Shown one piece after another: positions 250 through 15,712 of a stretch of DNA of 50,348 nucleotides. Below the pieces are notes generated by a model. The model saw only the letters and a list, made by a program, of their open reading frames with translations, had not been told where the DNA came from and ran no database searches. This stretch comes from Marinobacterium profundum (lineage in GTDB: Bacteria; Pseudomonadota; Gammaproteobacteria; Pseudomonadales; Balneatricaceae): contig NZ_BCNS01000107.1 in assembly GCF_001528745.1 (NCBI RefSeq), positions 1 to 50,348 of the forward strand, read 5' to 3'. Made by a program: the position numbers and the translations under genes. Each line of letters starts with the position of its first letter. Positions within the stretch are counted from its first letter, which is position 1.

Positions 250-1143
250 ATGCGAATCGATCTGCGTCACCTGCGTGCCTTTGAGGCGGTGGCTGAAGAG
301 TTGCACTTTCGCCGCGCCGCCGAGCGTCTCAACCTGGCTCAGCCGGCGCTGAGCCGCACTATCCAGCAACTGGAAGAGGTCATAGGTGAGGCGCTGTTGC
401 TGCGCACCAACCGCCGTGTCGAACTGACGGAAGCCGGTCGGGTCTTTCTGGCCGAGAGTAAAGTCATCTTCGCGCACCTGGACAGCGCTGTGCAGCAGGC
501 CCGCAAGGCAGCCGCCGGGCATATAGGCCAGCTGCGCATTGGTTACACCGACTTTGCTGTATCAGGTCAGCTGCCCCCCATACTGGACGGTTTTCACCGC
601 AGCTATCCCGACATCCGTACCGAACTGATTTATGGCTCCACCCGGCAGCAGCTGGAAAAGCTCAAGGAAGGCGCTATTGAGTTTGGTTTTGTGACGGGGC
701 CGCTGCTGGAGCCGGATCTGGATCGTGCCCTGGTACAGCGCGACCGCTTTGTCGCCGTGCTGCCACTGCGCCACCCCCTGGCAGGGCAGGCAGAGGTGGA
801 GCTGGCGGACCTTGCCAAGGAGCCCTTTGTGCTCGGCATCATGCGGCGCTGGTCCCATTACCGGCGCCAGCTCGATGCACTCTGCATTGAGGCAGGCTTC
901 CTGCCCAATGTCGCCCAGGAGGCTTATAACAGCGAGGGTGTGTTCGGCTTTGTGGCGGCCAATATTGGTGTGACTGTGCATCTTGAAAGTGCCGGCAGCT
1001 TCAGCCGCAAAGGGGTGGTGTTGCGCCCGCTCAAGGGGGTGACGGCTCGGGTCTGCACCGAAGCGGTCTGGGTCAGGGCCGGTGTTACGCCGGTGCAGCA
1101 GAAGTTTATCGATTTCCTGCAGGCCTGGTCACCGCCGGACTGA
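250..1143 (+). CDS. LysR-family transcriptional regulator
   Basis: A 297-residue protein of normal length for the LysR family. The N-terminal winged helix-turn-helix (about residues 3-62) contains FRRAAERLNLAQPALSR, close in style to the CatM/BenM/CbbR branch. The rest is a periplasmic-binding-protein-like effector domain. The ATG follows a TAGAGGT ribosome site. The gene points the same way as the five catabolic genes starting at 1411 and lies 267 bases before them, so it is the likely activator of that set. The upstream palindrome suggests autoregulation. The effector, perhaps ethanolamine or a pathway intermediate, cannot be read from sequence. Confidence 0.93.
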   Translation: MRIDLRHLRAFEAVAEELHFRRAAERLNLAQPALSRTIQQLEEVIGEALLLRTNRRVELTEAGRVFLAESKVIFAHLDSAVQQARKAAAGHIGQLRIGYTDFAVSGQLPPILDGFHRSYPDIRTELIYGSTRQQLEKLKEGAIEFGFVTGPLLEPDLDRALVQRDRFVAVLPLRHPLAGQAEVELADLAKEPFVLGIMRRWSHYRRQLDALCIEAGFLPNVAQEAYNSEGVFGFVAANIGVTVHLESAGSFSRKGVVLRPLKGVTARVCTEAVWVRAGVTPVQQKFIDFLQAWSPPD

Positions 1144-1410: not shown

Positions 1411-2844
1411 ATGACAGAGATGACGACCACTTCGGTGGGGTATGAGTCCGTTTCCAGCGACTACCTCGACAAACGCCAGCTCAAAAAAGGTGCCGCCGGC
1501 TGGATATTGCTGGCGAGCCTTGGAGTGTCTTATGTGATTTCCGGCGACTTTGCCGGCTGGAACTTTGGTCTCGGGCAGGGCGGCTTTGGCGGTATGCTGA
1601 TCGCCACTATCCTGATGGCGATCATGTACAGCTGCAAGGTGCTGGCGCTGGCCGAGTTGTCGGCCTCACTGCCCACCGCTGGCGGCGGCTACAGCTTTGC
1701 CCGCCGGGCCCTGGGCCCCTGGGGCGGCTACCTGACAGGCACCGCGATTCTGCTGGAATATGCCATTGCACCGGCCGCCATCGCGATCTTTATCGGTGGT
1801 TATGTCAACGAGCTGTTCGGGCTCGACGGCCCGTTGGTCTATGCCGCCTTCTACGCGGTCTTTATCGGCATTCATCTCTGGGGCGCGGGTGAGGCGCTGA
1901 AAATCATGATGGTGATTACAGGCCTGGCCGTGGCCGCCATTCTGGTGTTTATCATCGGCACCCTGCCGTATTTCAGCGTCGATAACCTGTTCGATGTCAG
2001 CGTCAATACTGCCGCGGCCGGTGCCAGCAGCTTTTTGCCCGAGGGCTATATAGGTATCTGGGCGGCGCTGCCCTTTGCCATGTGGCTGTTTCTGGCGGTA
2101 GAGGGCGTGCCCCTGGCGGCGGAGGAGTGCAAGAACCCGGCGAAGGACATGCCCCGCGGCATCATCACCGCCATGGCCGTGCTGCTGGTGTTCGGCATTC
2201 TGGTGCTGTTTCTGGCGCCCGGTGTGGCCGGTGCCGATCTGATGAAGGATCACGGCGCACCGCTGGTGGGTGCGCTCCAGGCGGTTTACGGTGAAGACTC
2301 AGGGGCGGCTACCTTCGTTAACGTGGTGGGGCTGTTCGGCCTGATCGCATCCTTCTTTTCCATTATCTATGCTTATTCACGTCAGGTGTTCGCACTGTCC
2401 CGCGCAGGCTATCTGCCGCGCTGGCTGTCGGTGACCGGCAAGAACAAGGTGCCGACCCTAGCGCTGGTGGTACCGGGCCTGATCGGTTTTGGGCTGTCCC
2501 TGACCGGCGAGGGGGATCTGATGATTACCATGGCGGTGTTCGGTGCGACCATTTCCTATGCGCTGATGACGCTGTCCCACATGATCCTGCGCCGCAAGGA
2601 GCCGAATCTGGAACGCCCCTACAGGACGCCGGGCGGCTCTGTGACTTCGGGAATCGCCTTTGTTCTTTCTATTGCGGCTTTCGCCTCCACCTTTCTGGTG
2701 AGTATCGAAGCGGCCATCTGGAGTGGTGTCTTCTATGCGGTGATGGTGGCCTATTTCGCCTTTTACAGTCGCCATCGTCTGGTGGCCCGGGCGCCTGAGG
2801 AAGAGTTTGCAGCCATTGCCCGGGCTGAATCCGAACTGAGCTGA
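1411..2844 (+). CDS. eat: Ethanolamine-type amino acid/amine permease (APC superfamily)
   Basis: A 477-residue inner-membrane protein with about 12 hydrophobic segments. The N-terminal stretch (LKKGAAGWILLASLGVSYVI, then SGDFAGWNFG and PTAGGGYSFARRALGPWGG) matches what I know of the ethanolamine permease branch of the APC family. Such proteins import ethanolamine or similar small amines by cation or proton coupling. It is the first gene of a five-gene set that could capture the amine by gamma-glutamylation. No ethanolamine ammonia-lyase genes (eutBC), the usual partners of this permease in pseudomonads, are present nearby. The substrate could also be another amino alcohol or short amine. Confidence 0.85.
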   Translation: MTEMTTTSVGYESVSSDYLDKRQLKKGAAGWILLASLGVSYVISGDFAGWNFGLGQGGFGGMLIATILMAIMYSCKVLALAELSASLPTAGGGYSFARRALGPWGGYLTGTAILLEYAIAPAAIAIFIGGYVNELFGLDGPLVYAAFYAVFIGIHLWGAGEALKIMMVITGLAVAAILVFIIGTLPYFSVDNLFDVSVNTAAAGASSFLPEGYIGIWAALPFAMWLFLAVEGVPLAAEECKNPAKDMPRGIITAMAVLLVFGILVLFLAPGVAGADLMKDHGAPLVGALQAVYGEDSGAATFVNVVGLFGLIASFFSIIYAYSRQVFALSRAGYLPRWLSVTGKNKVPTLALVVPGLIGFGLSLTGEGDLMITMAVFGATISYALMTLSHMILRRKEPNLERPYRTPGGSVTSGIAFVLSIAAFASTFLVSIEAAIWSGVFYAVMVAYFAFYSRHRLVARAPEEEFAAIARAESELS

Positions 2845-2851
2845 TAACTGT

Positions 2852-2881
2852 TGCCACGCAGGCCGCACCGGCCTGCGGGCA
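2852..2881 (+). promoter_or_regulatory. Intercistronic hairpin between permease and ligase genes
   Basis: The arms CGCAGGCC (2857-2864) and GGCCTGCG (2870-2877) pair perfectly around a five-base loop. The stem extends by TGCC/GGCA across one bulged A. No T-run follows, so it is more likely an RNA-stability or partial read-through structure than a full terminator. Confidence 0.5.
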
Positions 2882-2933
2882 TGACAATAAAAAATGGGGG
2901 CTGATGCGCTCAGCCTTCCCCGAGGACAGGCAG

Positions 2934-4313
2934 ATGATGAATCCCAGAGATGTAAAAACGGTCGCCGATGCCAAACGTATAGTGGAAGAGCGCGGCCTGC
3001 GCGACGTCAAGGTGGGCCTGTATGATGTCGATGGCATCATGCGTGGCAAGTACATGTGCAAGGACAAGTTCTTCAGTGCGCTGGAGAGCGGCTTTGCCTT
3101 CTGTGATGTGGTGCTGGGCTGGGACTCGAATGATCAGCTGTACGAGAATGTCGGCGTTAAATACACCGGCTGGCACACCGCCTACCCGGATGCACCGGTG
3201 CGGGTACTGCCCCAGACCTGCCGCGAGCTGCCGTTCGAGAAAGACATGCTGCTGTTTATCTGCGAATTCGATACCCCGGCCGACAGCATCTGCCCGCGCA
3301 ACCTGCTGCAGCGGGTGCTCAAGCGGGCCGACAAGCTGGGCTTTGAGCCCTACGCGGCCTTCGAGTACGAGTTCTTTCTGTTCAACGAGACGCCTGATTC
3401 GATTCGCGAAAAGGGCTACCGCGATCTGAAACCCATTACACCGGGCTTTCACGGTTACTCGATGCTGCGCAACTCAGTGCATGCCGAGCTGTACCATGAT
3501 CTGCTGGAGTTCTCGCGGCAGATGGATTTCCCCATCGAGGGACTCCATACCGAAACCGGCCCGGGTGTGCTGGAAGCCGCGCTGGTGGTGGATAACGCCT
3601 CTGATGCCGCCGACAAGGCGGCGCTGTTCAAAACCTTCACCAAGGTCTGGGCGCAGCGCAACAACATGATGGCCACCTTTATGGCCAAGTGGTCCAACGA
3701 CTACCCGGGCCAGTCCGGACATATCCACATGTCCCTGCGCTACAAGGACGGTTCGGGGTCGGTCTTCCACGACCCCAGTCAGCCACGCAACATCAGCCGC
3801 CAGCAGCGCCACTTTATCGGCGGCCAGCAGAAGCTGATGCCACAACTGCTGGCCATGATGGCGCAGACGGTGAATGCCTATTCGCGCCTGGTGCCGGGTG
3901 CCTGGGCGCCGACCGATGCGACCTGGGCGGTGGAAAACCGTACCACGGCGCTGCGGGTGATTCCGGGCTCCGAGAAATCCCAGCGGGTGGAATTCCGTCT
4001 CGGCTCCGCCGATGCCAACCCCTATATCGCCCTGGCCGCAGCCTTGGGTGCCGGGCTCTGGGGTATCGAGAACGAGATCGAACCCGAAGACGAAGTGGTG
4101 GGCAATGCCTATACCCAGCAGCATCCCGACAGCCTGGCGTTGCCGCTTTCCCTGCATGAAGCCGCCGTGGCGCTGCGCGAATCCGAGACGGCGAAAGAGC
4201 TGTTTGGCGAGGCCTTTGTCGAGCACTACGCCGCCACCCGGGTGTGGGAGTGCCAGGAGTTTCGCAAGCATGTGACCGACTGGGAACTGCAGCGTTACTT
4301 TGAAATTATCTAA
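2934..4313 (+). CDS. Glutamine-synthetase-like gamma-glutamyl-amine ligase
   Basis: A 459-residue member of the glutamine synthetase superfamily (GlnT/PuuA/IpuC/GmaS type rather than housekeeping GlnA). It has the beta-grasp start (VGLYDVDGIMRGKYM), the catalytic-domain signature around HTETGPGVLEAAL, the GHIHMSL segment and the NRTTALRVIPG substrate loop. Enzymes of this group join glutamate to an amine using ATP, giving a gamma-glutamyl amide. I chose the ATG at 2934 because GAGGA lies seven bases before it; an ATG at 2904 is possible but has poor spacing. With an ethanolamine-type permease upstream and two dehydrogenases downstream, gamma-glutamylethanolamide synthesis is the best guess. 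The substrate is inferred only. Confidence 0.85.
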   Translation: MMNPRDVKTVADAKRIVEERGLRDVKVGLYDVDGIMRGKYMCKDKFFSALESGFAFCDVVLGWDSNDQLYENVGVKYTGWHTAYPDAPVRVLPQTCRELPFEKDMLLFICEFDTPADSICPRNLLQRVLKRADKLGFEPYAAFEYEFFLFNETPDSIREKGYRDLKPITPGFHGYSMLRNSVHAELYHDLLEFSRQMDFPIEGLHTETGPGVLEAALVVDNASDAADKAALFKTFTKVWAQRNNMMATFMAKWSNDYPGQSGHIHMSLRYKDGSGSVFHDPSQPRNISRQQRHFIGGQQKLMPQLLAMMAQTVNAYSRLVPGAWAPTDATWAVENRTTALRVIPGSEKSQRVEFRLGSADANPYIALAAALGAGLWGIENEIEPEDEVVGNAYTQQHPDSLALPLSLHEAAVALRESETAKELFGEAFVEHYAATRVWECQEFRKHVTDWELQRYFEII

Positions 4314-4349
4314 GCCTGAAATTATCCCGGCCCGACCATATCCGATGAA

Positions 4350-4369
4350 GCACCCGGTCTGACGGGTGC
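4350..4369 (+). promoter_or_regulatory. Intercistronic hairpin between ligase and ALDH genes
   Basis: Perfect seven-base arms, GCACCCG (4350-4356) and CGGGTGC (4363-4369), flank a six-base loop in the 78-base gap. No T-run follows. It is probably a processing or stability element. Confidence 0.45.
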
Positions 4370-4391
4370 ATGAATTGAGACGAGTACTGCA

Positions 4392-5783
4392 ATGAGCAAA
4401 CAGCTGATAACCCTGTCACCGATCGATGGCTCCGAATACGTGGTGCGCGACTACGCCAGCGCCGCCCAGATAGAGGCGACGCTTGCCCGCGCTGCCGCTG
4501 CCCAGAAAGCCTGGAAACGCACCTCGCTTGAAGAACGCATTGTGCTGTGCAGCCGCATGGTGGATGCCTTTGTCGCCCGCAAGGACGAGATTGCGCTGGA
4601 ACTGTGCTGGCAGATGGGGCGGCCCATTCGCTATGCCGCCGGCGAAGTAGGCGGCCTCGAGGAGCGGGCTCGCTACATGATTTCGGCCGCTGCCGAGGCG
4701 CTGCAGCCCATTCAACTGCCGGAAAAACCGGGCTTCAGCCGTTATATCACCCGTGAAGCCCTGGGTGTGGTATTCGTGATTGCGCCCTGGAACTTCCCCT
4801 ACATGACGGCGGTGAACGCCATCATTCCGGCGATTCTGGCGGGCAACAGTGTGATTCTGAAGCATTCCGCCCAGACACCGCTCTGTGCCGAACGCTTCGC
4901 CGAAGCCTTTGCCGCCGCCGGCCTGCCGGAGGGTGTGTTCCAGTACCTGCACCTGGCCCACGCCGATACCCAGGGCCTGATCCAGGATGGGCGTATCAGC
5001 CATGTCTGCTTTACCGGTTCAGTGCCGGGGGGCGAAATGGTGGAGAAGGCTGCGGCGGGGCGCTTTATTGGCGTGGGGCTGGAGCTCGGCGGCAAGGACC
5101 CGGCCTACGTGCGGGCCGATGCGGATCTGGATCATGCGGTGGAAACCACCGTTGATGGGGCTTTTTTCAACTCCGGCCAGTCGTGCTGCGGCATTGAGCG
5201 CATCTACGTACATGAGTCGGTATATGAGCGTTTCGTTGAGCAGGCGGTAGCGCTGGTCAAGACCTACAAGCTGGGGCGCTCCGATGATCCTGACACCACC
5301 CTGGGCCCGGTGGTTCGAGCCCGTGCCGCCGACTTTATCCGTGCTCAGGTGAACGAGGCGGTAGCTGCAGGAGCAGTGGCTCATATCGATGCCGCCGACT
5401 TTCCGCTCGACGCCCCCGGCAGTGCCTACCTGGCGCCCCAGGTGCTGACCCATGTGAACCACGGCATGCGGGTCATGACGGAGGAAACCTTTGGGCCTGT
5501 AGTCGCCATCCAGAAGGTCAGCTCGGATGAAGAGGCCGTAGCGTTGATGAATGACTCCGAGTTCGGCCTGACCGCCTCGGTGTTCACCCGTGACATTGAT
5601 GCAGGCGTGGCCATCGGCGAGCAGCTCGAGACAGGTACCTTCTTCATCAATCGCTGCGATTATCTGGATCCGGCCCTGGCCTGGACAGGCGTAAAGAACT
5701 CAGGCCGTGGTTGCACCCTGTCGAGCGTCGGTTTCGAACATCTTACAAGGCCCAAGTCGTTCCATCTCAAGACCGGGATCTGA
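4392..5783 (+). CDS. NAD(P)-dependent aldehyde dehydrogenase
   Basis: A 463-residue aldehyde dehydrogenase of normal length. Visible landmarks are the oxyanion asparagine in APWNFP (about 131-136), the general base Glu231 in LELGGKDP, the catalytic Cys265 in NSGQSC, and the EETFGPV motif near the C-terminus. It oxidises an aldehyde to the acid in the cytoplasm. In this operon the natural substrate would be a gamma-glutamyl amino-aldehyde made by the neighbouring alcohol dehydrogenase, giving for example gamma-glutamylglycine. The C-terminal end reads SGRG followed by a normal ALDH tail. The substrate is inferred from context. Confidence 0.9.
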   Translation: MSKQLITLSPIDGSEYVVRDYASAAQIEATLARAAAAQKAWKRTSLEERIVLCSRMVDAFVARKDEIALELCWQMGRPIRYAAGEVGGLEERARYMISAAAEALQPIQLPEKPGFSRYITREALGVVFVIAPWNFPYMTAVNAIIPAILAGNSVILKHSAQTPLCAERFAEAFAAAGLPEGVFQYLHLAHADTQGLIQDGRISHVCFTGSVPGGEMVEKAAAGRFIGVGLELGGKDPAYVRADADLDHAVETTVDGAFFNSGQSCCGIERIYVHESVYERFVEQAVALVKTYKLGRSDDPDTTLGPVVRARAADFIRAQVNEAVAAGAVAHIDAADFPLDAPGSAYLAPQVLTHVNHGMRVMTEETFGPVVAIQKVSSDEEAVALMNDSEFGLTASVFTRDIDAGVAIGEQLETGTFFINRCDYLDPALAWTGVKNSGRGCTLSSVGFEHLTRPKSFHLKTGI

Positions 5784-5815
5784 ACGCCAGGCGCATACTG
5801 AATACAGCAGAGAAT

Positions 5816-6991
5816 ATGACCATGAACTATGAAAACCTGAGCGGCAACTGGAACTACCCCAACAGCATTCGTGCCGGTGCCGGTCGTATCAGCGAACTGG
5901 CCGAGTGCTGCAAGGCGCTGGGCATGCAGGCGCCATTGCTGATCACGGATCCTGGCCTGGCGGCGCTGCCGATGGTGGCTGAGGCCGAAGCGCAGTGCCG
6001 GGCTGCCGGGTTGCGTATTGGCCTGTTCAGCGAGATCAAGGGCAATCCCACCGGCAGGAACGTCGATGATGGCCTGGTGGCCTATAGGGCAGGCAAGCAC
6101 GACGGTGTTATCGCCTTCGGTGGCGGTTCTGCGCTGGATGCCGCCAAGGCGGTGGCGCTGATGGCTGGCCAGACGCTGGAGCTGTGGGATTTTGAGGATG
6201 TGGGCGACAACTGGACCCGCGTCAATGCCGAGGGTGTCGCCCCCATAGTGGCGGTGCCGACCACCGCCGGGACCGGCTCCGAAGTGGGCCGTGCCTCTGT
6301 GATCACCGATGACGCGCAGCACATCAAGAAGATCATCTTCCATCCCAAAATGCTGCCGGGCATCGTGATTCTGGACCCGGTACTGACCGTTGGCCTGCCG
6401 CCCAAAGTCACCGCAGCCACCGGCATGGATGCGCTGTCCCATAATCTGGAAGCGCTCTGCTCGCCGTTCTGGCATCCCATGGCCGAGGGCATCGCCAACG
6501 AAGGCATTCGCCTGGTGCACGATTATCTGCCCCGTGCCGTGGCCGATGGCCAGGATCTTGAGGCCCGCATGCAGATGATAGTGGCGTCTTCCATGGGGGC
6601 GACGGCCTTTCAGAAAGGCCTGGGTGGCATGCACGCCCTGGCACATCCGCTGGGGGCCCTGTTCGATGCCCACCACGGCATGCTCAACGCCATCCTGATG
6701 CCCTATGTTCTCAAGGCCAACCGTGAGGTTATTTGTGAGCGTATTGAGCGCAGCGCCCGTTACATTGGCCTGGCGGATACGAGTTTCGAGGGTTTTCTTG
6801 ATTGGGTACTGCAGCTACGCGCCCAGGTTGGCATTCCCCACAGCCTGGGCGAGATCGGCATAGACGCGAGTCAGCTTGAAAAAATTGGTCGCATGGCCGT
6901 TGCCGACCCATCCGCCGGTGGCAACCCGATTCAGTTCAGCGCCGAGCAGTACAGTGCACTCTGCGGTCGCGCTATTCGTGGCGAACTCTGA
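5816..6991 (+). CDS. Iron-type (group III) alcohol dehydrogenase
   Basis: A 391-residue iron-containing alcohol dehydrogenase. It shows the nucleotide motif FGGGSALDAAK and TTAGTGSEV, and the metal-binding pattern GMHALAHPLGALFDAHHG with its spaced histidines (the usual PHG is AHHG here). It interconverts an alcohol and an aldehyde with NAD(P). ATG codons at 5816 and 5822 are both possible; the AGAGA before them suits the second better. It starts 32 bases after the ALDH gene, so the two are co-transcribed. The likely job is to oxidise the hydroxyl group of a gamma-glutamyl amino alcohol. Confidence 0.9.
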   Translation: MTMNYENLSGNWNYPNSIRAGAGRISELAECCKALGMQAPLLITDPGLAALPMVAEAEAQCRAAGLRIGLFSEIKGNPTGRNVDDGLVAYRAGKHDGVIAFGGGSALDAAKAVALMAGQTLELWDFEDVGDNWTRVNAEGVAPIVAVPTTAGTGSEVGRASVITDDAQHIKKIIFHPKMLPGIVILDPVLTVGLPPKVTAATGMDALSHNLEALCSPFWHPMAEGIANEGIRLVHDYLPRAVADGQDLEARMQMIVASSMGATAFQKGLGGMHALAHPLGALFDAHHGMLNAILMPYVLKANREVICERIERSARYIGLADTSFEGFLDWVLQLRAQVGIPHSLGEIGIDASQLEKIGRMAVADPSAGGNPIQFSAEQYSALCGRAIRGEL

Positions 6992-7009
6992 ACATCGCGG
7001 CCAATGCGA

Positions 7010-7094
7010 GCCCTTGAAAACCAAGGTATTTCACAAAATTCAGCCCGGTTTTCAAGGGCGACAATCAAATAGGCAGGGACGCCTAATTGATTGT
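7010..7094 (+). promoter_or_regulatory. Two consecutive strong inverted repeats before the amidotransferase gene
   Basis: The first has perfect 13-base arms, GCCCTTGAAAACC (7010-7022) and GGTTTTCAAGGGC (7047-7059). The second, starting two bases later, has arms ACAATCAA (7061-7068) plus TAGGC (7070-7074), and GCCTA (7081-7085) plus TTGATTGT (7087-7094), with a single A-A mismatch. They fill most of the 123-base gap. They may weaken read-through into the last gene, protect the upstream message, or bind a protein. Confidence 0.5.
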
Positions 7095-7114
7095 TATGTT
7101 AATAGGAGAGTGCA

Positions 7115-7819
7115 ATGAAGATTGGCATTCTGCAGTGTGACGATGTGCAGGAAAAACTGCAGCCGGAGTTCGGCAACTATCCGCAGATGTTCCGCGACAT
7201 GATGCTGCAGATAGACCCGCAGCTTGAGTTTGCGGTCTACGATGTGAGGCTTGGTGAGTTGCCGGCTGATATCGATGACTGTGATGCCTATATCACCTCC
7301 GGCAGTCGGCACGGTGTGCTCGATGGTCTGGCCTGGGTGGCGGAGCTGGAAGACTTTATCCGCCGCCTGGATGCGGGCAAGAAAAAATTCGCCGGTATCT
7401 GTTTTGGGCATCAGCTTCTGGCCCAGGCGCTGGGCGGAGCCGTTGAAAAGTCGGAGCGGGGCTGGGGGGTGGGGATGTCGTTCAATCAGATCGATGTCCG
7501 CAAAGCCTGGATGGAGCCGTTCAAGCCTGCTATTGATTTGGTGGTGAGTCATCAGGATCAGGTGAGCGCGCTGCCAGAGGGTTTTGAGGTGCTGGCCAGC
7601 AGCGCTTTCTGCCCCTACTACATGCTGCAGTACCAGAACCATTTGCTTAGCGTGCAGGGCCATCCGGAATTTTCCAGAGACTATTCCCGTGCACTGACTA
7701 TCAGCCGGCAGAACCGGATTCCACCCAGTCGAGTACGTGAAGCGCTGCATTCACTCAGCGCCGACGTCGATGATCTGCTGGTGATGCGCTGGATTATTAA
7801 TTTCTTTTACGACCGCTAG
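7115..7819 (+). CDS. Class I glutamine amidotransferase-like gamma-glutamyl hydrolase
   Basis: A 234-residue stand-alone class I GATase domain resembling the amidotransferase part of GMP synthase, with no synthetase part. The nucleophile Cys96 sits in GICFGHQ, and His183 and Glu185 sit in QGHPEF, completing the triad. TAGGAGAG lies before the ATG. Free-standing proteins of this type are often called GMP-synthase-like but are not purine enzymes. At the end of a gamma-glutamylation operon its role is probably to hydrolyse the gamma-glutamyl bond of the oxidised intermediate, as PuuD does in putrescine breakdown, returning glutamate. That role is inferred. Confidence 0.82.
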   Translation: MKIGILQCDDVQEKLQPEFGNYPQMFRDMMLQIDPQLEFAVYDVRLGELPADIDDCDAYITSGSRHGVLDGLAWVAELEDFIRRLDAGKKKFAGICFGHQLLAQALGGAVEKSERGWGVGMSFNQIDVRKAWMEPFKPAIDLVVSHQDQVSALPEGFEVLASSAFCPYYMLQYQNHLLSVQGHPEFSRDYSRALTISRQNRIPPSRVREALHSLSADVDDLLVMRWIINFFYDR

Positions 7820-7834
7820 GGGCTGGAAGCCATC

Positions 7835-7865
7835 GCCCGCTGCAGCTCTGCAGTGGGCCTTTTTG
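7835..7865 (+). terminator. Rho-independent terminator of the catabolic operon
   Basis: GCCC-G-CTGCAG (7835-7845) pairs with CTGCAG-T-GGGC (7848-7858) with one internal mismatch, followed by CTTTTTGG. It lies 16 bases after the amidotransferase stop codon and closes the five-gene set. Confidence 0.85.
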
Positions 7866-7866
7866 G

Positions 7867-7908
7867 TTCGTGATTGGTAATTCGTGATTGGTAATTCGTC
7901 ATTCGTTA
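7867..7908. repeat. Three tandem 14-base units
   Basis: TTCGTGATTGGTAA occurs twice head to tail (7867-7880, 7881-7894), followed by a worn third copy, TTCGTCATTCGTTA (7895-7908). A pyrimidine-rich stretch follows up to the LysR stop codon. It looks like slippage-type intergenic repeat DNA lying between two converging genes. Confidence 0.8.
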
Positions 7909-7975
7909 TTCGCGGCGTAGATCGTCTTGTGCTTGTTCTTTCCCCTTTCCCCTCGCACCTCGCCCCTGCTTTTCC

Positions 7976-8926
7976 CTATTCCAGCTTGATTTGCGGTAGC
8001 AGCCAGCTGTATTCGGCGCCGATTTCGGCCACAAAGCTGTCCTGCAAAATGCGTCGGCAGTCGCGGGCAATCATGCCGGGCAGGTCACCCAGTTCGCCCT
8101 TGCGGGTGGTAAGGGTTATTTCACGGGCAAAGCCGTGGCCCAGTGGCAGCAGCGTCACCTGGTGCTGACGAATGCCGCTCTGGAACAGGCACAGCGGCGT
8201 GGTGATGGTGCAGCCAATATCACTGGCCACGGCGGAAACCACGGCGAAAGAGTTGTCCAGCTGCAGCCGCAGGGGGGGCTCCTGGCGCGCCAGGCGCAGA
8301 AAGCGCTCCACGTCCTGACCGATCAGTGAGCTGGTGCTGTAGCGGATAAAATCGAGCCGGCGCAATACTTCGGCCAGAGTCTTGGGCCCGGTGTAGTTGT
8401 TGGGCACCGCCAGCACAAAGGGTTCCTTCAGAATACGATGGCGGTCCAGGTCGGAGTGATCGGACAAAGGATCATCGGAAATAATGATATCCGCCTGGCG
8501 CGACAGCAGCATATGGGCGTGCAGGTGCGACTGACCCGTGATGGCGGCCCAGCTCTGGGTGCGCTGGCGCAGCACATCGATCAGGGGCTTGCCCACGGCA
8601 GCGATAATGGAGTCCACCAGGGCGACTTTTACATGGCGCAGCAGCTTGTAATCGGCCTTGCGCATTTTCTGACTGGTGAGGCGGGCTTCCTGCAAAAGGC
8701 TTTGGGCGCGGTCGTACAGGTAGCGCCCGGCGGTGGTGATCTCCATGGGCCTGACGCTGCGATCCATCAGTTCGACGCGCATCTCGGCTTCCAGGTTGGT
8801 AAGAATCTGCGACAGAGACGACTGGCTCATGCCCAGGCGCTGGCCAGCCAGGGTCAGGTTGCCGGTTTCGGCGATCTGGACGAAAGCCTCCAGGGTACGC
8901 AGGTCAAAGCCGAAAGAAGACGACAT
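7976..8926 (-). CDS. LysR-family transcriptional regulator
   Basis: A 316-residue LysR-type regulator with an N-terminal helix-turn-helix (about residues 8-68, containing GNLTLAGQRLGMSQSSLSQ) and an effector domain. It lies downstream of, and on the same strand as, the racemase, FAD oxidoreductase and TAXI-TRAP genes, 115 bases after the racemase. It may be part of that transcription unit and regulate it, but another LysR gene at 14789 diverges from the same unit, so the division of work is unclear. The ligand is unknown. Confidence 0.9.
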   Translation of the reverse strand: MSSSFGFDLRTLEAFVQIAETGNLTLAGQRLGMSQSSLSQILTNLEAEMRVELMDRSVRPMEITTAGRYLYDRAQSLLQEARLTSQKMRKADYKLLRHVKVALVDSIIAAVGKPLIDVLRQRTQSWAAITGQSHLHAHMLLSRQADIIISDDPLSDHSDLDRHRILKEPFVLAVPNNYTGPKTLAEVLRRLDFIRYSTSSLIGQDVERFLRLARQEPPLRLQLDNSFAVVSAVASDIGCTITTPLCLFQSGIRQHQVTLLPLGHGFAREITLTTRKGELGDLPGMIARDCRRILQDSFVAEIGAEYSWLLPQIKLE

Positions 8927-9041
8927 GAAAGCCCTTTATGGGTGGGTTCAGGCATTCATTATCGACGTGTCAGCGCCGCTGGCAACCATTGGGGCGCTGC
9001 AATTTCTTTTTGTTTTCAATTGATTGGGAATTCAGATGTGC

Positions 9042-9773
9042 TCAGGGGCGCCAGGCGGGTTGGCCTGCATGGGTCACAGTGCTGGCCACCATGCGGGTCA
9101 GGCTGCTGAGATCGAATACCGGCAGGGCGAAACGGGCCTGCAGTTGCTGCGAGAAACAGGACAGATCAGTGCATTCCAGCACCAGGGCGCCAACGTCGGG
9201 GTGCTCGGCCAGCATTCGGCTAACAACGCCCGTCAGCTCGGCCTCGAACAGCGCCATGTCGAGATCCTGACCGGTGCCCTCAAGTATCACAGTGCGGAAT
9301 TGAGGCTGGTCCTGCATGCCGGCGATGGCAATGCGCTCAGTACCAATGCCGGCACCGCGCAGGTGGTCTTCGCTAAGGGCATCGCTGTTGGCGACTATGA
9401 CGCCCACCTGGCGTTGGGGTCCCAGCATGCGCGAGACCAGCGGCACCTGAATCAGGCTGGAAAGAAACACCGGCACCGATACCGCCGCGGCTATGGTCTG
9501 CTGGTGCAGCGCCAGAAAGCCGCAGCTGCCGGTAATCGCCTTTACGCCTTCACGTTCCAGCTCCTGTGCCGCATCGATAAAGGGTTGCAACAGGGCCGGG
9601 TCACGCTGGCGGATCAGCCGGTCGACGGTGGCGCCCTGTACCGTCTTGTACAGCAGCGGGAAGTCGAAGCCCGCCGGGTTTTTGATGTGTCCCAGGGGCT
9701 TGGGAAAGCGGGACTCCAGGCTGAGCACGCCGATGGGAATACCGTAATAGTTTTGGCCGCCGTGCAGAATCAT
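9042..9773 (-). CDS. Aspartate/glutamate racemase family protein
   Basis: A 243-residue member of the Asp/Glu/hydantoin racemase superfamily. Two cysteines in the expected contexts, TGSCGF (about residue 84) and LECTDLS (about 197), are the usual acid-base pair that moves a proton at the alpha carbon. AGGAAG lies in front of the ATG. Its neighbours upstream are a DadA-like oxidoreductase and a TAXI-TRAP transporter, so it may convert an imported amino acid to the enantiomer that the oxidase accepts. Maleate isomerase or hydantoin racemase activity cannot be ruled out. Directly upstream lies a broken copy of its own first codons. Confidence 0.85.
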   Translation of the reverse strand: MILHGGQNYYGIPIGVLSLESRFPKPLGHIKNPAGFDFPLLYKTVQGATVDRLIRQRDPALLQPFIDAAQELEREGVKAITGSCGFLALHQQTIAAAVSVPVFLSSLIQVPLVSRMLGPQRQVGVIVANSDALSEDHLRGAGIGTERIAIAGMQDQPQFRTVILEGTGQDLDMALFEAELTGVVSRMLAEHPDVGALVLECTDLSCFSQQLQARFALPVFDLSSLTRMVASTVTHAGQPAWRP

Positions 9774-9815
9774 GTGATCTTCCTAATGTGTGTGCAGGGA
9801 TTGTGAGCTGTGCCT

Positions 9816-9941
9816 TTAGCAGGCAAGCGCGCCTGTAACGGCGGTGGTCTTGATGTGCTTCAGGGTCTTGATACATCTGGATTTCAGGCTGAGTACGCCG
9901 ATGGGAATACCACAATCTATGTGGCCGCCGTGCAGCATCAT
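9816..9941 (-). pseudogene. Truncated duplicate of the 5' end of the racemase gene
   Basis: A 41-codon frame starting MMLHGGHIDCGIPIGVLSLK closely copies the start of the adjacent racemase (MILHGGQNYYGIPIGVLSLE). DNA similarity extends through the start region: CGATGGGAATACC, GGCCGCCGTGCAG and the bases around the start codon recur about 170 bases apart. It keeps its own AGGAG ribosome site but then runs into unrelated codons and a TAA. It is best explained as a partial tandem duplication that has decayed. Translation as a short peptide is possible but has no known role. Confidence 0.75.
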
Positions 9942-9999
9942 GGTGTAGCTCTCCTGTGTGCAGTGTTTGAATGCGATTGAGTGTCCGGTTCTGAATATT

Positions 10000-11268
10000 T
10001 CAGGAGAAGCGCTCAGGCGCAAAGGGCGCCAGATCGATGTCCGTGGGCTGATCCGAGATCAGTTGCGAGACCAGCTTTCCGGTAATGGCGGCCAGCGTCA
10101 GGCCCAGATGGCCATGGCCGAACGCCAGCGTCACACGGGGCTGCGCTTTGAGCGTGCCTATTACCGGCAGTGAGTCCGGTGTTGAAGGGCGGCTTCCCAT
10201 CCAGCTGGATTTCACCTGGGTGTGCCGTCCGAGCATTCTGTCGGCATGGGTGTGCATCAGCGCACTGCGGCGCTCATCTGGAGGCGCCTGACAGGCGGCA
10301 AACTCGGCGGTGCCGGCCACCCGTATGCCATCGCTCATGGGGGTCAGGAAAATGCCCTGATCCAGCCACCCCACCGGGCGCGTAAGGGTATCGCTGGGCA
10401 GATCCAGCGTCAGGTGATAACCGCGCTCGGATACCAGGGGTACCCGCACGCCACACTGATTCGCCAGGGCCTTGGAGGCGGCACCTGTGGCGATCACCAG
10501 GCGATCAAACCGCAGGCGTTGCAGAGCGCAGCGCAGTACAACTGCGTCGGTATCGGCGTGGATCGAATCCACTTTCTGTTGCACAAAGCGCCCGCCCTGG
10601 TCACAAAAATGGGCAAACAGGGCGCGGCTGAGTGCCACCGGGCTGATGGTATGGCGCGTTTTTGGGTAGTAGACGCCGCCGGCGTGAAAACCGTTGAGGC
10701 TGGGTTCCAGCTGTTGCACCTGCGCGGCGCTAAGGAACTCTAGCTCCACACCCTGTTCGCGCCGCTCCTGTAGCCCCTGGGTGCGTGCCTGGGCAAAGCC
10801 CTCGACGCTGCTAAATAACCCGAGGCAGCCATGGGACTGCACCAGAGACTCTGTACCGGTGAGGGCCAGCAGGCTGCGATCAGCCGCCGGAGCCAGCTCC
10901 TGCAGTGCGGTGAGCGCCTGCTTGCCGCGCCTGTAGCGGGATGGGAAGCAGGCCTTGAAGAAATGCCAGCCGTAGGGCATTAGCTGGGGCAGATAGCTCG
11001 GCTGCACCGACACCGGGCTCTGGGCATCGAGCAGCATGGCGGGCATCTTGCACAGCAGCGAAAAACTGGTGAAGGGCAGGCGGGCGTAGTCGGCGAAAAG
11101 ACCGGCATTGCCAAAGGAAGTGCCGAGCCCGGGTTGAGCCTGGTCGATCAGGGTCACCCGGTGGCCGGCCCGCTGCAGCCAGAGGGCGCTGCACAGGCCT
11201 ATGATGCCGGCGCCGATCACGGCGACTTGGCGGGCATTGCCGGCAGGCTGAATTGGATGGTCGGACAT
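10000..11268 (-). CDS. DadA-like FAD-dependent D-amino-acid oxidoreductase
   Basis: A 422-residue FAD protein of the DAO/DadA family. The ADP-binding fold is near the N-terminus (VAVIGAGIIGLCSALWLQ, about residues 15-32), VIATGAAS lies in the middle, and SWMGSRPSTPDSLPVIG plus GHGHLGLTLA form the C-terminal FAD site. Enzymes of this group strip hydrogen from D-amino acids, giving a 2-oxo acid and ammonia, and pass electrons to the respiratory chain. It follows the TRAP permease gene and precedes the racemase. Its ribosome site AGGTGACT (11270-11277) can pair perfectly with a copy just after the permease stop, suggesting translational coupling. Confidence 0.85.
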   Translation of the reverse strand: MSDHPIQPAGNARQVAVIGAGIIGLCSALWLQRAGHRVTLIDQAQPGLGTSFGNAGLFADYARLPFTSFSLLCKMPAMLLDAQSPVSVQPSYLPQLMPYGWHFFKACFPSRYRRGKQALTALQELAPAADRSLLALTGTESLVQSHGCLGLFSSVEGFAQARTQGLQERREQGVELEFLSAAQVQQLEPSLNGFHAGGVYYPKTRHTISPVALSRALFAHFCDQGGRFVQQKVDSIHADTDAVVLRCALQRLRFDRLVIATGAASKALANQCGVRVPLVSERGYHLTLDLPSDTLTRPVGWLDQGIFLTPMSDGIRVAGTAEFAACQAPPDERRSALMHTHADRMLGRHTQVKSSWMGSRPSTPDSLPVIGTLKAQPRVTLAFGHGHLGLTLAAITGKLVSQLISDQPTDIDLAPFAPERFS

Positions 11269-11269
11269 G

Positions 11270-11335
11270 AGTCACCTGCTGGCGCCCGTTATGGGCGCGT
11301 CTATAGGGGGCGGGTGTGATGGCGGCTAGGTGACT
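11270..11335 (-). promoter_or_regulatory. Hairpin able to hide the ribosome site of the dadA-like gene
   Basis: On the minus-strand message, AGTCACCT (from 11335-11328) comes four bases after the permease stop codon. It is the exact complement of the Shine-Dalgarno region AGGTGACT (11277-11270). An inner hairpin GCGCCC/GGGCGC (11282-11298) shortens the loop. Ribosomes finishing the permease would disturb the upstream arm, which is the classical layout for coupling. Confidence 0.55.
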
Positions 11336-11339
11336 GACG

Positions 11340-13421
11340 TCAGGAGTTGGCGCAGCGCGCCGGTGCCAGGGTTTCGTCCTGGCGCCGTGCCAGCAGCTGC
11401 TGCGCCAGTACCGGCAGCAGCAGGGCCAGACCGTAGAGGTCGGACTGCAGGCCCGGCGTGATCAGCGCTATGGCGGCGGCAAAGGTCAGCAGGCGGGGCA
11501 GCAGTGGCAGGTTGCGCAGGGCATAGCCGGTGATGGCGATACCGAACACGAAGATGCCCGCCATGCAGCTAAAGGTGGTGAGCAGGTATTCGGACCAGGT
11601 GAAGTAATCCTCCAGCACGATCAGCATGGCCGGCGAGTAGACGAACACGAATGGCATCATGATCTTGGCGTTGCCGAGCTGGAAGGCCGATATGCCGGTA
11701 CGAAACGGATTGGCATTGGCAATGCCGGCGGCGGCATAGGCCGAGGTGCACACCGGCGGAGTAATCTCCGACAGCACGCCGTAATAGAGCACGAACAGGT
11801 GCGCCGCGAGCGCCGGAACACCCAGGTTAGACAGCGCTGGCTGTGCCACGGCGCTGAGCATGATGTAGAGCGCGGCCGTGGGCAGGCCGGCCCCCATCAG
11901 GATGCAGGACAGCGCGATCAGCACCAGGGATACGAAGAGCGTTGCCTGATCCAGCGAGAACAGTTCGAACGGCAGCCAGGTGGTCATGGCCATCAGGGAC
12001 TCGCCTATATCCTGGGCGCCGCTGGTCACCAGAAAGCCGAGGCGAAAAGCCACGCCTGTGGTGGTGATGACACCCACCACTATGCCGACGGCCGAACAGG
12101 CCGCTCCCACCGCCAGGGCGTATTTGGCGCCTATCTTGAATGCATCGAAAATGTCGCCAAAGCCAATACGGTTGCGCGGGTTAAGCACCCCCACGGCCAG
12201 GCTGGCGGCGATACCGGAGAAGGCCGCCATATAGGGCGTAAAGCCGCTGAAGAGCACGCCGATCAGCACCACCAGTGGGAGCATGGTGGGCCAGCCGTCT
12301 TTCAGTACCGCCAGCAGATGGGGAATGTCCTCTTTGGCGCAGCCCTTGAGGCCGAGTTTCTTGGCCTTGAAGTGCACTATGGTCAGTACGCCAATGTAGT
12401 GCATGATGGCCGGTGTCATGGCGGCCAGCACTATGCTGCCGTAGGACATCTGCAGGTTCTCGGCCATGATAAAGGCTGCCGCGCCCATGATCGGCGGGGT
12501 AATCTGGCCACCGGCACTGGAAGCCGCCTCAACGCCGCCGGCAAAGTGGCCGGGGTAGCCGAGCTTTTTCATGTTGGGAATGGTCAGGGAGCCGGTCGAG
12601 ACCGTATTGGCCACGGCGGAGCCCGAAATGGTGCCGAAAAAGGCCGATGAGACCACGCTGACCTTGGCCGGGCCGCCGGAATAACGGCCGGCAACGATGG
12701 TGGCGATATCGATGAAGAACTGGCCCAGCCCCATGCGCTGGGCGATAACGCCAAAGAGCACAAAGTGGAACACCACGGTCGACACCACCCAGAGGGTAAT
12801 GCCGAAGATGCCCTCGGCCGGGAAATAGATATTGTTGATGAACTGATTCCAGCTCACGCCGGGGTGGCGCAGGATATCGAAGGGCAGGTACTGCCCGAAG
12901 AGCGCATAGCAGGCGAACAGAATGATGATCAGCGGCAGAACCGGGCCCAGGGTGCGGCGGGTTGCTTCCAGCACCAGAAACACCAGCAGGCTGCCAAATA
13001 TGATATCCAGCAGCGCCGGATTCCCCTGACGCAGCGCCTGTTCGTCAAGCATCAGGCCGACGAAGCTCAGGTCCAGCCCCATCCAGGTGAAACCTATATA
13101 AAGCGATGCGACCACGCTGAGGCCCGCCAGCACAAAATCGTACAGGGGTACGCGGCTGCTCTGGTCGGCGTTCTTGCGTTCCAGACACTTGAAACCGGCA
13201 TAGTAGATAAAGATCATCGACAGCACGCCGGACAGGTGAATGCCCATGTGCCAGTAATCGGCCGGCAGCCCGAAGCCCGCCGTGATGAAATGGTAGAGGG
13301 CGAACAGGGCTAGCAGCACGCCGCAGACCTGTTCCAGTTTGCGCGGGAGCTTGCGGGTTTGCAGTTCGGAGTCGTACTGCTCTTCCAGCTCCTGCATCTG
13401 TTCGATACTGATCTTGTCCAT
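11340..13421 (-). CDS. TRAP transporter, fused small and large membrane subunits
   Basis: A 693-residue inner-membrane protein of the 4TM/12TM-fused TRAP class, which is typical of TAXI-type systems. After a short charged N-terminus it is hydrophobic throughout. The DctM-like part contains GRYSGGPAKVSVVSSAFFGT, SGSAVANTVSTG and GGQITPPIMGAAAFIMAE, the loops that line the transport path in this family. A second PP-containing hairpin (SEITPPVCTSAYAAAGIA) lies near residue 590. GGGAGG lies five bases before the ATG. It works with the periplasmic binding protein encoded just upstream to import an anionic organic solute using a sodium gradient. Given its neighbours, an amino acid is likely. Confidence 0.93.
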   Translation of the reverse strand: MDKISIEQMQELEEQYDSELQTRKLPRKLEQVCGVLLALFALYHFITAGFGLPADYWHMGIHLSGVLSMIFIYYAGFKCLERKNADQSSRVPLYDFVLAGLSVVASLYIGFTWMGLDLSFVGLMLDEQALRQGNPALLDIIFGSLLVFLVLEATRRTLGPVLPLIIILFACYALFGQYLPFDILRHPGVSWNQFINNIYFPAEGIFGITLWVVSTVVFHFVLFGVIAQRMGLGQFFIDIATIVAGRYSGGPAKVSVVSSAFFGTISGSAVANTVSTGSLTIPNMKKLGYPGHFAGGVEAASSAGGQITPPIMGAAAFIMAENLQMSYGSIVLAAMTPAIMHYIGVLTIVHFKAKKLGLKGCAKEDIPHLLAVLKDGWPTMLPLVVLIGVLFSGFTPYMAAFSGIAASLAVGVLNPRNRIGFGDIFDAFKIGAKYALAVGAACSAVGIVVGVITTTGVAFRLGFLVTSGAQDIGESLMAMTTWLPFELFSLDQATLFVSLVLIALSCILMGAGLPTAALYIMLSAVAQPALSNLGVPALAAHLFVLYYGVLSEITPPVCTSAYAAAGIANANPFRTGISAFQLGNAKIMMPFVFVYSPAMLIVLEDYFTWSEYLLTTFSCMAGIFVFGIAITGYALRNLPLLPRLLTFAAAIALITPGLQSDLYGLALLLPVLAQQLLARRQDETLAPARCANS

Positions 13422-13456
13422 GTGAACCTCCCATGGCCAGGTGAGTCCGGGTGCAT

Positions 13457-13483
13457 GCCGGCGGCGACAATAATGCCGCCGGC
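13457..13483 (-). promoter_or_regulatory. Intercistronic hairpin between binding-protein and permease genes
   Basis: Perfect nine-base GC-rich arms, GCCGGCGGC (13457-13465) and GCCGCCGGC (13475-13483), flank a nine-base loop in the 115-base gap. No T-run follows on either side. In binding-protein transporters such a structure usually stabilises the upstream message, so that more binding protein than permease is made. Confidence 0.6.
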
Positions 13484-13536
13484 AACCGGTGCCGAGCAGG
13501 CTCAGACCGGGTGCGCGCTTAGTGTTGGGCGGTGGT

Positions 13537-14544
13537 TTAGTGCAGTACGCCGGCTTCGCGGTAGAACTTTTCGGCGCCCGGATGCAGCGGAATGGTGACG
13601 CCGCTCAGAGCCGTGTTCAGCTTGATCATGCGGGCCTTGGGATGGCCGCTTTCGAACAGCTGGCGGGTGCTGTCATTCCACAGCGCCTTGGTGATGTCGT
13701 ACACGAGCTCTTCCGGGACATCGGCATTGGTCATCCACTGGGCACCGCCGGCGAGGGTTTTGACGTCATAGTCCACGCCCTCGTAGGTGCTGGCGGGAAT
13801 GGTTTCGGAGTAGTAATAGGGCAGTGCCTGCTGGATGGTGGCTCTTTCTGCATCACTGAAGGAGTACAGCTCCATGCCCCGGGTCGCATCCAACTGCACA
13901 ATGGCGGCTATAGGCGTGCCGGCAACATAGAAGTAGGCATCGAGCTGGCCGTCGGCCAGATGCTCGGCACTCTGGGTATTGTTGAGTTCGGCTTCATCAA
14001 TGTTGGAGCGATCAAGGCCAAACTGGCTCAGCAGCTGCAGCACTGCCACCTGGGTACCGGAGCCGGCCTGGGCAATGCCGACACGCTTGCCCTTGAGGTC
14101 TTGCAGCGAATTCAGTTTGGCCCCCTTGGGCAGCACCAGGTGCATTTCTTCGGGAAACAGGTTGGCTATCACGCGCAGCTTGTCGTATTTGGCCTGACCT
14201 TCAAACTTGCCGCCGCCGTTGTAGGCGGTATGGACTATGCCGGCAATCGCCAGGCCCGACTCCATCTGCCCTGTCTGCACGCCTGTAGCATTGGCCACCG
14301 AGGCATTGGATGACTGAGCAATAGCGACCAGGCCCGGAACGCCGCAGCTGCCGCCATCTTCACAGGCCCGGGAGCCCGGCGGGCTGCTGATGGCGTTGGC
14401 GATCAGGCCGGCAATGGGGAAGTAGGATCCACCGGCGCTGCCGCTGCCAATGCGAAAGAACTGCATTTCGGCGGCCTGGCTGAAGCCGGACAGGGCGGTG
14501 GTGGCGGCCAGTGCGGTACCGGCGATAAGGGTCTTGAGGCGCAT
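13537..14544 (-). CDS. TAXI-family TRAP solute-binding protein
   Basis: A 335-residue periplasmic protein. The signal peptide (about residues 1-24) has a basic start MRLK, a hydrophobic core and an SQAA cleavage context. The mature part begins with FFRIGSGSAGGSYFPIAGLI, the hallmark of TAXI proteins (TRAP-associated extracytoplasmic immunoreactive). KLNSLQDLKGKRVGIAQAGSGTQ forms the hinge and ligand loop. Four cysteines are absent, but a CEDGGSC pair may form a disulphide. AGGAG lies six bases before the ATG. It is the first gene of the minus-strand set and would capture the substrate for the fused permease. Glutamate and related acids are known TAXI ligands. Confidence 0.93.
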   Translation of the reverse strand: MRLKTLIAGTALAATTALSGFSQAAEMQFFRIGSGSAGGSYFPIAGLIANAISSPPGSRACEDGGSCGVPGLVAIAQSSNASVANATGVQTGQMESGLAIAGIVHTAYNGGGKFEGQAKYDKLRVIANLFPEEMHLVLPKGAKLNSLQDLKGKRVGIAQAGSGTQVAVLQLLSQFGLDRSNIDEAELNNTQSAEHLADGQLDAYFYVAGTPIAAIVQLDATRGMELYSFSDAERATIQQALPYYYSETIPASTYEGVDYDVKTLAGGAQWMTNADVPEELVYDITKALWNDSTRQLFESGHPKARMIKLNTALSGVTIPLHPGAEKFYREAGVLH

Positions 14545-14712
14545 GTTGAGCTCCTGGATTGTTGTTTTTGGTGCTGCAGGATCGGGTGCGGCACGGGGCC
14601 GCCGGATGTTATTCGCTACGGGGGCTGGCGTGGGTTGAGCGGCGGGGCGGGTCGAATAGGTCCATGGGGTCTCCGTTGATCTGTTGTTGTGAGAGAACCT
14701 GATGTGTGCATT

Positions 14713-14755
14713 ATTCGATCAGATGAATATAATAACAAATCGTATTTTTTTACGA
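14713..14755. promoter_or_regulatory. Divergent control region with two palindromes
   Basis: Between the TAXI gene and the divergent LysR gene lie ATTC-N8-GAAT (14713-14728) and a perfect TCGTA-N6-TACGA (14740-14755), in an AT-rich stretch. Both have the size of LysR-type half-site pairs. They could let the adjacent regulator control itself and the TAXI-TRAP set. Promoter boxes are not clear enough to assign. Confidence 0.4.
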
Positions 14756-14788
14756 CTTGATCAGATTTTTTTATATTAAGGAGTGGCC

Positions 14789-15712
14789 ATGAACCTGCGT
14801 CAGATGGAAGCATTTCGAGCGGTGATGCTCACAGGCTCCGTATCCCAGGCGGCCAAACAGCTGTTCAAGACTCAGCCGGCGGTGAGCATGTTGCTGAGTG
14901 CGCTGGAGCAGGAGATCGGCTTTCAGCTGTTTGAACGGCGCAAGAAACGGCTATATCCAACGCCCGAGGCCAAATACCTGTTCGACGAGGTGGAGTCGAT
15001 TTTTTCGCGCATCCACGATGTTTCCCAGACAGTGCGTGATATTCAGAACAAGCAGTTCGGCTACCTGCGTATCGGCTGCATGCCGGGGCCGTCCACCTTC
15101 TTTGTGCCGGATCTGGTGGCGGATTTTCTCGAGGCGCACCCGCGGGTGCAGGTGTCACTACAGACACGCACTTCGCCCTCGGTCATCGAATGGGTTGCGT
15201 CCAACCAGTACGACATTGGCCTGGCGGAGATCACCAGTCGGGATCAGGGGATCGATACCGACAGCGTTTCCCTGCCGTGCCTCTGTGCGCTGCCGGCGGC
15301 TCATCCGCTGGCGGCACAGGAGCTGATCACGCCCGCGCTGCTCGATGACGAGGCCATGATTACACTGCACCCGGACCACATGACCTTTCATGATCTGCAA
15401 AAGCATTTTGAACAGGCGGGTGTGCGCATGAATGTGCGCCTGCAGACGCGATTTTTCATTCCGGCGCTGCGTTTTGTCGAACGCGGGCTCGGTGTCTGCA
15501 TCATGGATCCGATCTCGGTGGCCAGTTATTGCAGCTATGCGGCGCCCGGCAAGGTGGTATTCCGGCGTTTCGAGCCCGAGATACGGCTCAAGTTCGGTAT
15601 CATGTATCCGGCGGATCTGCCGCGCTCCGGCATTACCCAGGTATTTGCCGAACAGCTGCACGGGCGGATACTGGATTTGCAGGAGAGCCCGCAGCGTTTA
15701 ACGCTCTGGTAA
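14789..15712 (+). CDS. LysR-family transcriptional regulator
   Basis: A 307-residue LysR-type regulator with the usual N-terminal helix-turn-helix (SVSQAAKQLFKTQPAVSMLL within residues 1-62) and effector domain. The ATG at 14789 is preferred because AAGGAG (14778-14783) sits five bases before it; a GTG at 14783 would overlap that site. It diverges from the TAXI-TRAP set and is followed 50 bases later by a sodium:solute symporter gene. It could therefore control either or both transport systems. The effector is unknown. Confidence 0.92.
   Translation: MNLRQMEAFRAVMLTGSVSQAAKQLFKTQPAVSMLLSALEQEIGFQLFERRKKRLYPTPEAKYLFDEVESIFSRIHDVSQTVRDIQNKQFGYLRIGCMPGPSTFFVPDLVADFLEAHPRVQVSLQTRTSPSVIEWVASNQYDIGLAEITSRDQGIDTDSVSLPCLCALPAAHPLAAQELITPALLDDEAMITLHPDHMTFHDLQKHFEQAGVRMNVRLQTRFFIPALRFVERGLGVCIMDPISVASYCSYAAPGKVVFRRFEPEIRLKFGIMYPADLPRSGITQVFAEQLHGRILDLQESPQRLTLW

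Follow-up and report, generated by a model that had tools for sequence, protein, structure and literature searches.

A probable ethanolamine gamma-glutamylation operon with a GATase-fold hydrolase and a ligase of a separate clade in Marinobacterium profundum

Contig NZ_BCNS01000107.1 of Marinobacterium profundum, the 50,348 nucleotides of which we refer to as the window, carries five genes in one direction at positions 1411 to 7819. They encode a permease, a glutamine synthetase (GS)-like ligase, an aldehyde dehydrogenase (ALDH), an iron-type alcohol dehydrogenase (ADH), and a class I glutamine amidotransferase (GATase), and we think it very likely that they constitute a complete gamma-glutamylation operon that turns ethanolamine into glycine. 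The permease would import ethanolamine, and the ligase would join it to the gamma-carboxyl group of glutamate with the expenditure of ATP. The ADH would oxidize the hydroxyl group of gamma-glutamylethanolamide to an aldehyde, the ALDH would convert the aldehyde to gamma-glutamylglycine, and the GATase-fold hydrolase would release glycine and glutamate, the latter to be reused. The pathway is known, and what is new here is the clade of the ligase and a GATase as the final hydrolase. Moreover, the operon likely represents a second lineage of the pathway, which keeps the ALDH-ADH core, uses an uncharacterized ligase of a sister clade and an unrelated last hydrolase of the GATase fold, switches between an amino acid-polyamine-organocation (APC) permease and the tripartite ATP-independent periplasmic (TRAP) system of EtoX, often has a LysR regulator of its own, and extends across Gammaproteobacteria, some Alphaproteobacteria, and a Desulfopila.

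Gamma-glutamylation of ethanolamine has been proposed for Streptomyces and Chromohalobacter salexigens (PMC6529630, PMC9397018). The GlnA4 ligase of Streptomyces makes gamma-glutamylethanolamide, an activity shown in vitro, and the later steps are predictions (PMC6529630). Proteomic support for the route was reported in Phaeobacter (PMC10132767), and the route is reviewed in PMC9397018. An earlier note on this DNA, made from the sequence without database searches, had proposed the same succession of amine import, gamma-glutamyl capping, oxidation by ADH and ALDH, and hydrolysis. Comparison supports that route for the window, but the route itself had already been published.

Ethanolamine is indicated first by the transporters. 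The permease (1411 to 2844, plus strand) is of the APC type and scored 542.5 bits against the TIGR00908 ethanolamine permease model, passing the curated cut-off of 381.75. The TRAP system EtoVWX is absent from the window operon, which has the TIGR00908 permease instead, and the connection to EtoX is made through relatives. Locus L033, from the same order, reads formylglutamate amidohydrolase (PF05013)-EtoV-EtoW-EtoX-ligase-ALDH-ADH. The operon of Phaeobacter MED193 has the same gene order, its proteins increase on phosphorylethanolamine, and its genes were called closely related to the ethanolamine-use genes of C. salexigens and Agrobacterium tumefaciens (PMC10132767). EtoX binds ethanolamine with a Kd of about 8 µM (PMC10132767), and Csal_0678 was crystallized with bound ethanolamine as 4UAB (PMC12410723). 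EtoX proteins also occur beside ligases of the window's own clade, which we call type B, and these matched PDB entry 4uab with E values of 3e-167 (L112), 4e-174 (L027, of relative G018), and 2e-156 (L063). The platform acid of Csal_0678 is Glu220 (PMC12410723), which probably corresponds to the Glu that follows Ile-Thr in EtoX proteins; that Glu was invariant in nine of nine EtoX proteins, seven of which had the exact string GITED. Thus, the type B ligase is found with two unrelated transporters, both of which point to ethanolamine.

The ligase (2904 to 4313, plus strand), a proposed gamma-glutamylethanolamide synthetase, matched PF00120 with 328 bits, and the alignment of its relatives begins near residue 11 of the open reading frame (ORF). 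It fell below the cut-offs of all four NCBIfam GS models that it matched, GlnA and gamma-glutamylputrescine synthetase among them. The L033 ligase belongs to what we call type A, the type of Csal_0679, and matched the Csal_0679 structure (PDB 5dm3) with 638 bits; the window ligase matched it with 207 bits and is not of that type. We built a ligase tree of 31 rows (30 different), with 20 rows of type B, 7 of type A (two of them the same gene), and, as the rest, PuuA, a pair of GS-like proteins, and this genome's GlnA-type protein. A branch present in all 200 bootstrap trees divided type A from type B (support of 100/100 each), and the two were jointly set apart from the rest (95/91), several of whose branches are long. 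By phylogeny, the window ligase belongs to a separate clade that is sister to the 5dm3/Csal_0679 type. The two types never occurred in the same genome among 194 genomes of the order (9 with type A and 34 with type B), a separation that is not significant (P = 0.36). An open-access literature search found no paper on a type B ligase.

One could regard the ligase as a GS paralog for nitrogen assimilation with unrelated neighbors, as it has the GS fold and the closest solved folds of its structure model are archaeal glutamine synthetases. The model (predicted local distance difference test [pLDDT] of 73) confirms only the fold, and residues 67 to 95, 165 to 192, and 332 to 337 are among its parts below a pLDDT of 50. 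The GS flap Glu (E327 of the Salmonella enzyme), however, is Trp334 in the window ligase, and all 12 type B rows examined have Trp there. At the same position, the two type A rows inspected have Phe, PuuA has Tyr, and the genome's own GlnA-type protein has Glu; PauA7 and GlnA4 have W296 and F331, respectively (PMC6529630). Moreover, the genome already has that GlnA-type protein on contig C124, and the ligase, ALDH, and ADH stay together across the loci described below. We reject nitrogen assimilation by a GS paralog on the loss of the flap Glu and consider it extremely improbable.

Only slightly less improbable is an operon of the Puu or Pau type that would gamma-glutamylate polyamines or monoamines. 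The ligase does match the gamma-glutamylputrescine synthetase model, at 191.9 bits and far under the cut-off of 650, and is 31% identical to PuuA. The puuPADRCBE system of Escherichia coli likewise combines import, gamma-glutamyl capping, an ALDH, and a hydrolase. It relies on the amine oxidase PuuB, however, and the window operon has neither a PuuB-type oxidase nor a PuuA-type ligase; it has an alcohol dehydrogenase instead, and its ligase lies outside the PuuA branch, itself a long one. Homologs of PuuA, PuuB, PuuC, and PuuD (48, 62, 38, and 42% identical, respectively) lie together elsewhere in the genome, on contig C144 (L128, about 5032 to 10232), and the PuuD homolog there is a Peptidase_C26 protein. 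We reject the polyamine operon because of this separate puuABCD set, which also weakens a polyamine preference of the ligase, an outcome that the earlier note had named as contrary to its proposal. Contig C91 (L129, about 5993 to 8760) encodes a further GS-like ligase (33% identical to PuuA) adjoining a PuuB-like oxidase (42% identical to PuuB).

The remaining enzymes of the proposed ethanolamine route follow the ligase. The ALDH (4392 to 5783, plus strand; PF00171), which would form gamma-glutamylglycine from the aldehyde, has Glu231 and Cys265 and is 57% identical to the ALDH of the L033 EtoX operon and 31% identical to PuuC. The iron-type ADH (5822 to 6991, plus strand; PF00465), the proposed gamma-glutamylethanolamide dehydrogenase, is 57% identical to the ADH of the L033 operon, and both dehydrogenases are of the kind found in kin of the C. 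salexigens/MED193 pathway. The listed ADH ORF begins at a TTG at 5711 and overlaps the ALDH gene; an ATG at 5816 or 5822 is the likelier start. The stand-alone GATase (7115 to 7819, plus strand; PF00117), the proposed gamma-glutamylglycine hydrolase, has the triad Cys96, His183, and Glu185. Its best solved match was gamma-glutamyl peptidase 1 (E value of 1.4e-23), well before GMP synthases (1.5e-11). The window operon has no PF05013 hydrolase, and the PF00117 GATase stands in its place. The two kinds of hydrolase look interchangeable, as the type B loci L091 and L102 lack a GATase hit and encode a PF05013 enzyme instead. An open-access literature search found no paper in which a GATase was shown to perform the last step in Proteobacteria.

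Two published systems invite comparison. The operon of C. salexigens and Phaeobacter MED193 (Csal_0678-0679; MED193_10021-10056) likewise has a GS-fold ligase, an ALDH, an iron dehydrogenase, a final hydrolase, and a dedicated transporter, a comparison that runs through the 57% identities to L033 and is direct, via PDB, only for Csal_0678 and Csal_0679. The window differs in the clade of its ligase, in an APC permease rather than the TRAP system EtoVWX, and in a PF00117 GATase rather than a formylglutamate amidohydrolase of PF05013, the family given for the C. salexigens hydrolase in Table 2 of PMC9397018. Moreover, the candidate regulator in the window is of the LysR family, whereas that named for Phaeobacter is RpiR (PMC10132767). 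The Streptomyces glnA4 cluster (SCO1610-SCO1615) resembles the window operon by description, with a permease (in several species), ligase, ALDH, dehydrogenase, and glutamine amidotransferase (PMC6529630, Fig. 2 legend). Thus, a GATase in such a cluster has precedent. The legend gives a short-chain dehydrogenase, whereas the window has an iron ADH, and the discussion of the paper, in contrast to its legend, calls the SCO1615 hydrolase a relative of formylglutamate amidohydrolase (PMC6529630).

The earlier note had suggested that the gene order be sought in other Gammaproteobacteria, and there it is widely kept. The ligase was found in five of the six other genomes of the genus and, with the own genome counted, in 14 of 38 relatives (the near sample), 34 of 194 genomes of the order, and 12 of 229 genomes of the class. 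The count for the order takes in matches down to 46% identity, and the near-sample count leaves out G025, whose match (32%) is a type A ligase. For gene neighborhoods we used a named set, the best 80 of 570 confirmed ligase candidates (loci L034 to L113), which leans to near relatives for that reason. The pairs L022/L034, L024/L048, and L028/L059 probably each represent one genome retrieved twice, and tallies use L034 to L113 only. In the 66 named loci whose sequence continues for 3.6 kb or more past the ligase, the ALDH (no more than 2.5 kb away) was present in 60, the ADH in 62, the GATase in 38, and all three in 38; the ALDH tally excludes L091 and L102, whose ALDH lies further away. We assessed upstream genes in the 62 named loci that extend for 6 kb or more on that side and found the permease (at least 60% identity, within 2.5 kb) in 15, EtoX (within 6 kb) in 13, and both in 1 (L073).

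All five genes were present in 10 of the 80 named loci, namely L045 and L083 (Endozoicomonas kin), L046 (a gammaproteobacterial metagenome-assembled genome [MAG]), L059 (Balneatrix), L084 (Oceanimonas), and L073, L078, L093, L096, and L097 (Halomonas kin), and also in four genomes of the same genus (L019, L020, L021, and L023). Thus, the gene order goes beyond chance. The ligase also occurs in Alphaproteobacteria (Pelagibius and Denitrobaculum), on a complete Desulfopila chromosome, and in MAGs labeled Akkermansiaceae and Myxococcales, where the contigs are short and the labels possibly wrong. Several arrangements vary. At L036, L039, L041, L042, L044, L052, and L058, the ADH directly follows the ligase with no such ALDH between them, and an ALDH may be encoded elsewhere. 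At L055, L071, and L081, the ligase is preceded by another APC permease, which shares about 40% identity with that of the window. Legionella-type loci (L050, L053, L054, L057, L065, L088, L089, and L098) have ligase-ALDH-ADH-GATase and neither ethanolamine transporter within the stretch covered.

Several points weigh against an ethanolamine operon. Of the 66 loci assessed downstream, 28 lack a GATase hit, and type B ligase genes at L030, L031, and L076 have none of the usual partners nearby. The window ligase shares 33% identity with the L033 type A enzyme, hardly above its 31% with PuuA. Of six eutB loci examined, only one (L114) has a homolog of the window permease (62% identical) nearby, beginning 3.9 kb before eutB. 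The open-access literature yielded neither activity measurements nor phenotypes for type B ligases or the window GATase. Finally, 35 of the 62 assessable loci have neither the permease nor EtoX upstream, and part of the family may therefore act on another substrate. The same chemistry could act on a different primary amino alcohol (for example, L-alaninol or 3-aminopropanol) and yield alanine or beta-alanine, as the gene set suits any primary amino alcohol. The sequence of the 4uab binding protein has a second entry, 4xf5, presumably an alaninol complex. The permease model, however, was named for ethanolamine by its curators, and ethanolamine is the common natural amino alcohol and comes from phospholipids. 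Moreover, it is ethanolamine that EtoX binds (PMC10132767, PMC12410723). For the window operon, we consider another amino alcohol unlikely and ethanolamine the much more probable substrate.

Replacement of ethanolamine ammonia-lyase (eutBC) by the operon, which the earlier note had suggested testing, is only loosely borne out. The short eut operon (eat-eutBC) has an ethanolamine permease in common with the window, and EutB had no match in the M. profundum genome (G000, completeness of 100). Across the order sample, the ligase occurred in 34 genomes and EutB in 46 of 194, with both in one (G385; Fisher P = 0.0007). Counted by genus, the ligase occurred in 17 and EutB in 24 of 97 genera, with one shared (two-sided P = 0.063). 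The near sample, however, showed no avoidance, with EutB in 2 of 14 genomes that have the ligase and 4 of 24 that do not (P = 1.0). Strict replacement of eutBC is only weakly supported, given the genus-level and near-sample values.

All five genes lie where the earlier note had placed them, and the ALDH residues that it named are correct. The operon was also said to end at a terminator, and a terminator-like hairpin does follow it at 7835 to 7858 on the plus strand (10 pairs, 7 of them G-C, followed by the T-run CTTTTTGG). A scan of the window, however, found 11 terminator sites against a shuffle mean of 8.9 (standard deviation of 2.7), which is no clear excess, and it is therefore how strong this single site is, and where it lies, that supports the call. 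We searched for a sigma-70-like promoter before the operon and found none.

The operon does lie behind a LysR gene (250 to 1143, plus strand), as had been noted, but that gene is probably not its regulator. It occurs in two of the four same-genus five-gene loci, the 80 named loci include no match of at least 60% identity, and with conservation so patchy we reject it as the conserved regulator. Instead, a second, convergent LysR gene (7976 to 8926, minus strand) probably controls the operon, judging from its conservation. It is kept at 94% identity or more in all four same-genus five-gene loci, as two matched pieces in L023, and an ortholog is also convergent in L026, L035, and L037. Orthologs of at least 40% identity precede transporter genes on the same strand in 13 of the 80 named loci, before the permease in nine, the second APC permease (about 40%) in two, and EtoVWX in two. 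The convergent LysR gene has apparently moved downstream in this lineage.

The ligase type, present in 34 of 194 sampled genomes of the order (with neighboring genes checked only for the few that were fetched), reaches no NCBIfam cut-off. If the ethanolamine operon is as proposed, it would provide a specific candidate function for a stand-alone GATase family and for a LysR family. Moreover, a marine census that took EtoX as the marker of ethanolamine use placed 1% of its hits in Gammaproteobacteria (PMC10132767), and operons based on a permease, like that of the window, would be missed by such a marker.

Beyond the operon, the region from 7976 to 15712 continues on the minus strand after the convergent LysR gene with genes for an Asp/Glu racemase-like protein, a flavin adenine dinucleotide (FAD) protein resembling D-amino acid dehydrogenase, a TRAP DctM protein (693 amino acids), and an NMT1-type binding protein, which we presume to be TAXI-like. 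Another LysR gene lies beyond them on the plus strand (14783 to 15712). From its gene content, the region looks like a separate uptake and oxidation cluster. Locus L019 keeps the same gene order as far as the DctM gene, where its stretch ends.

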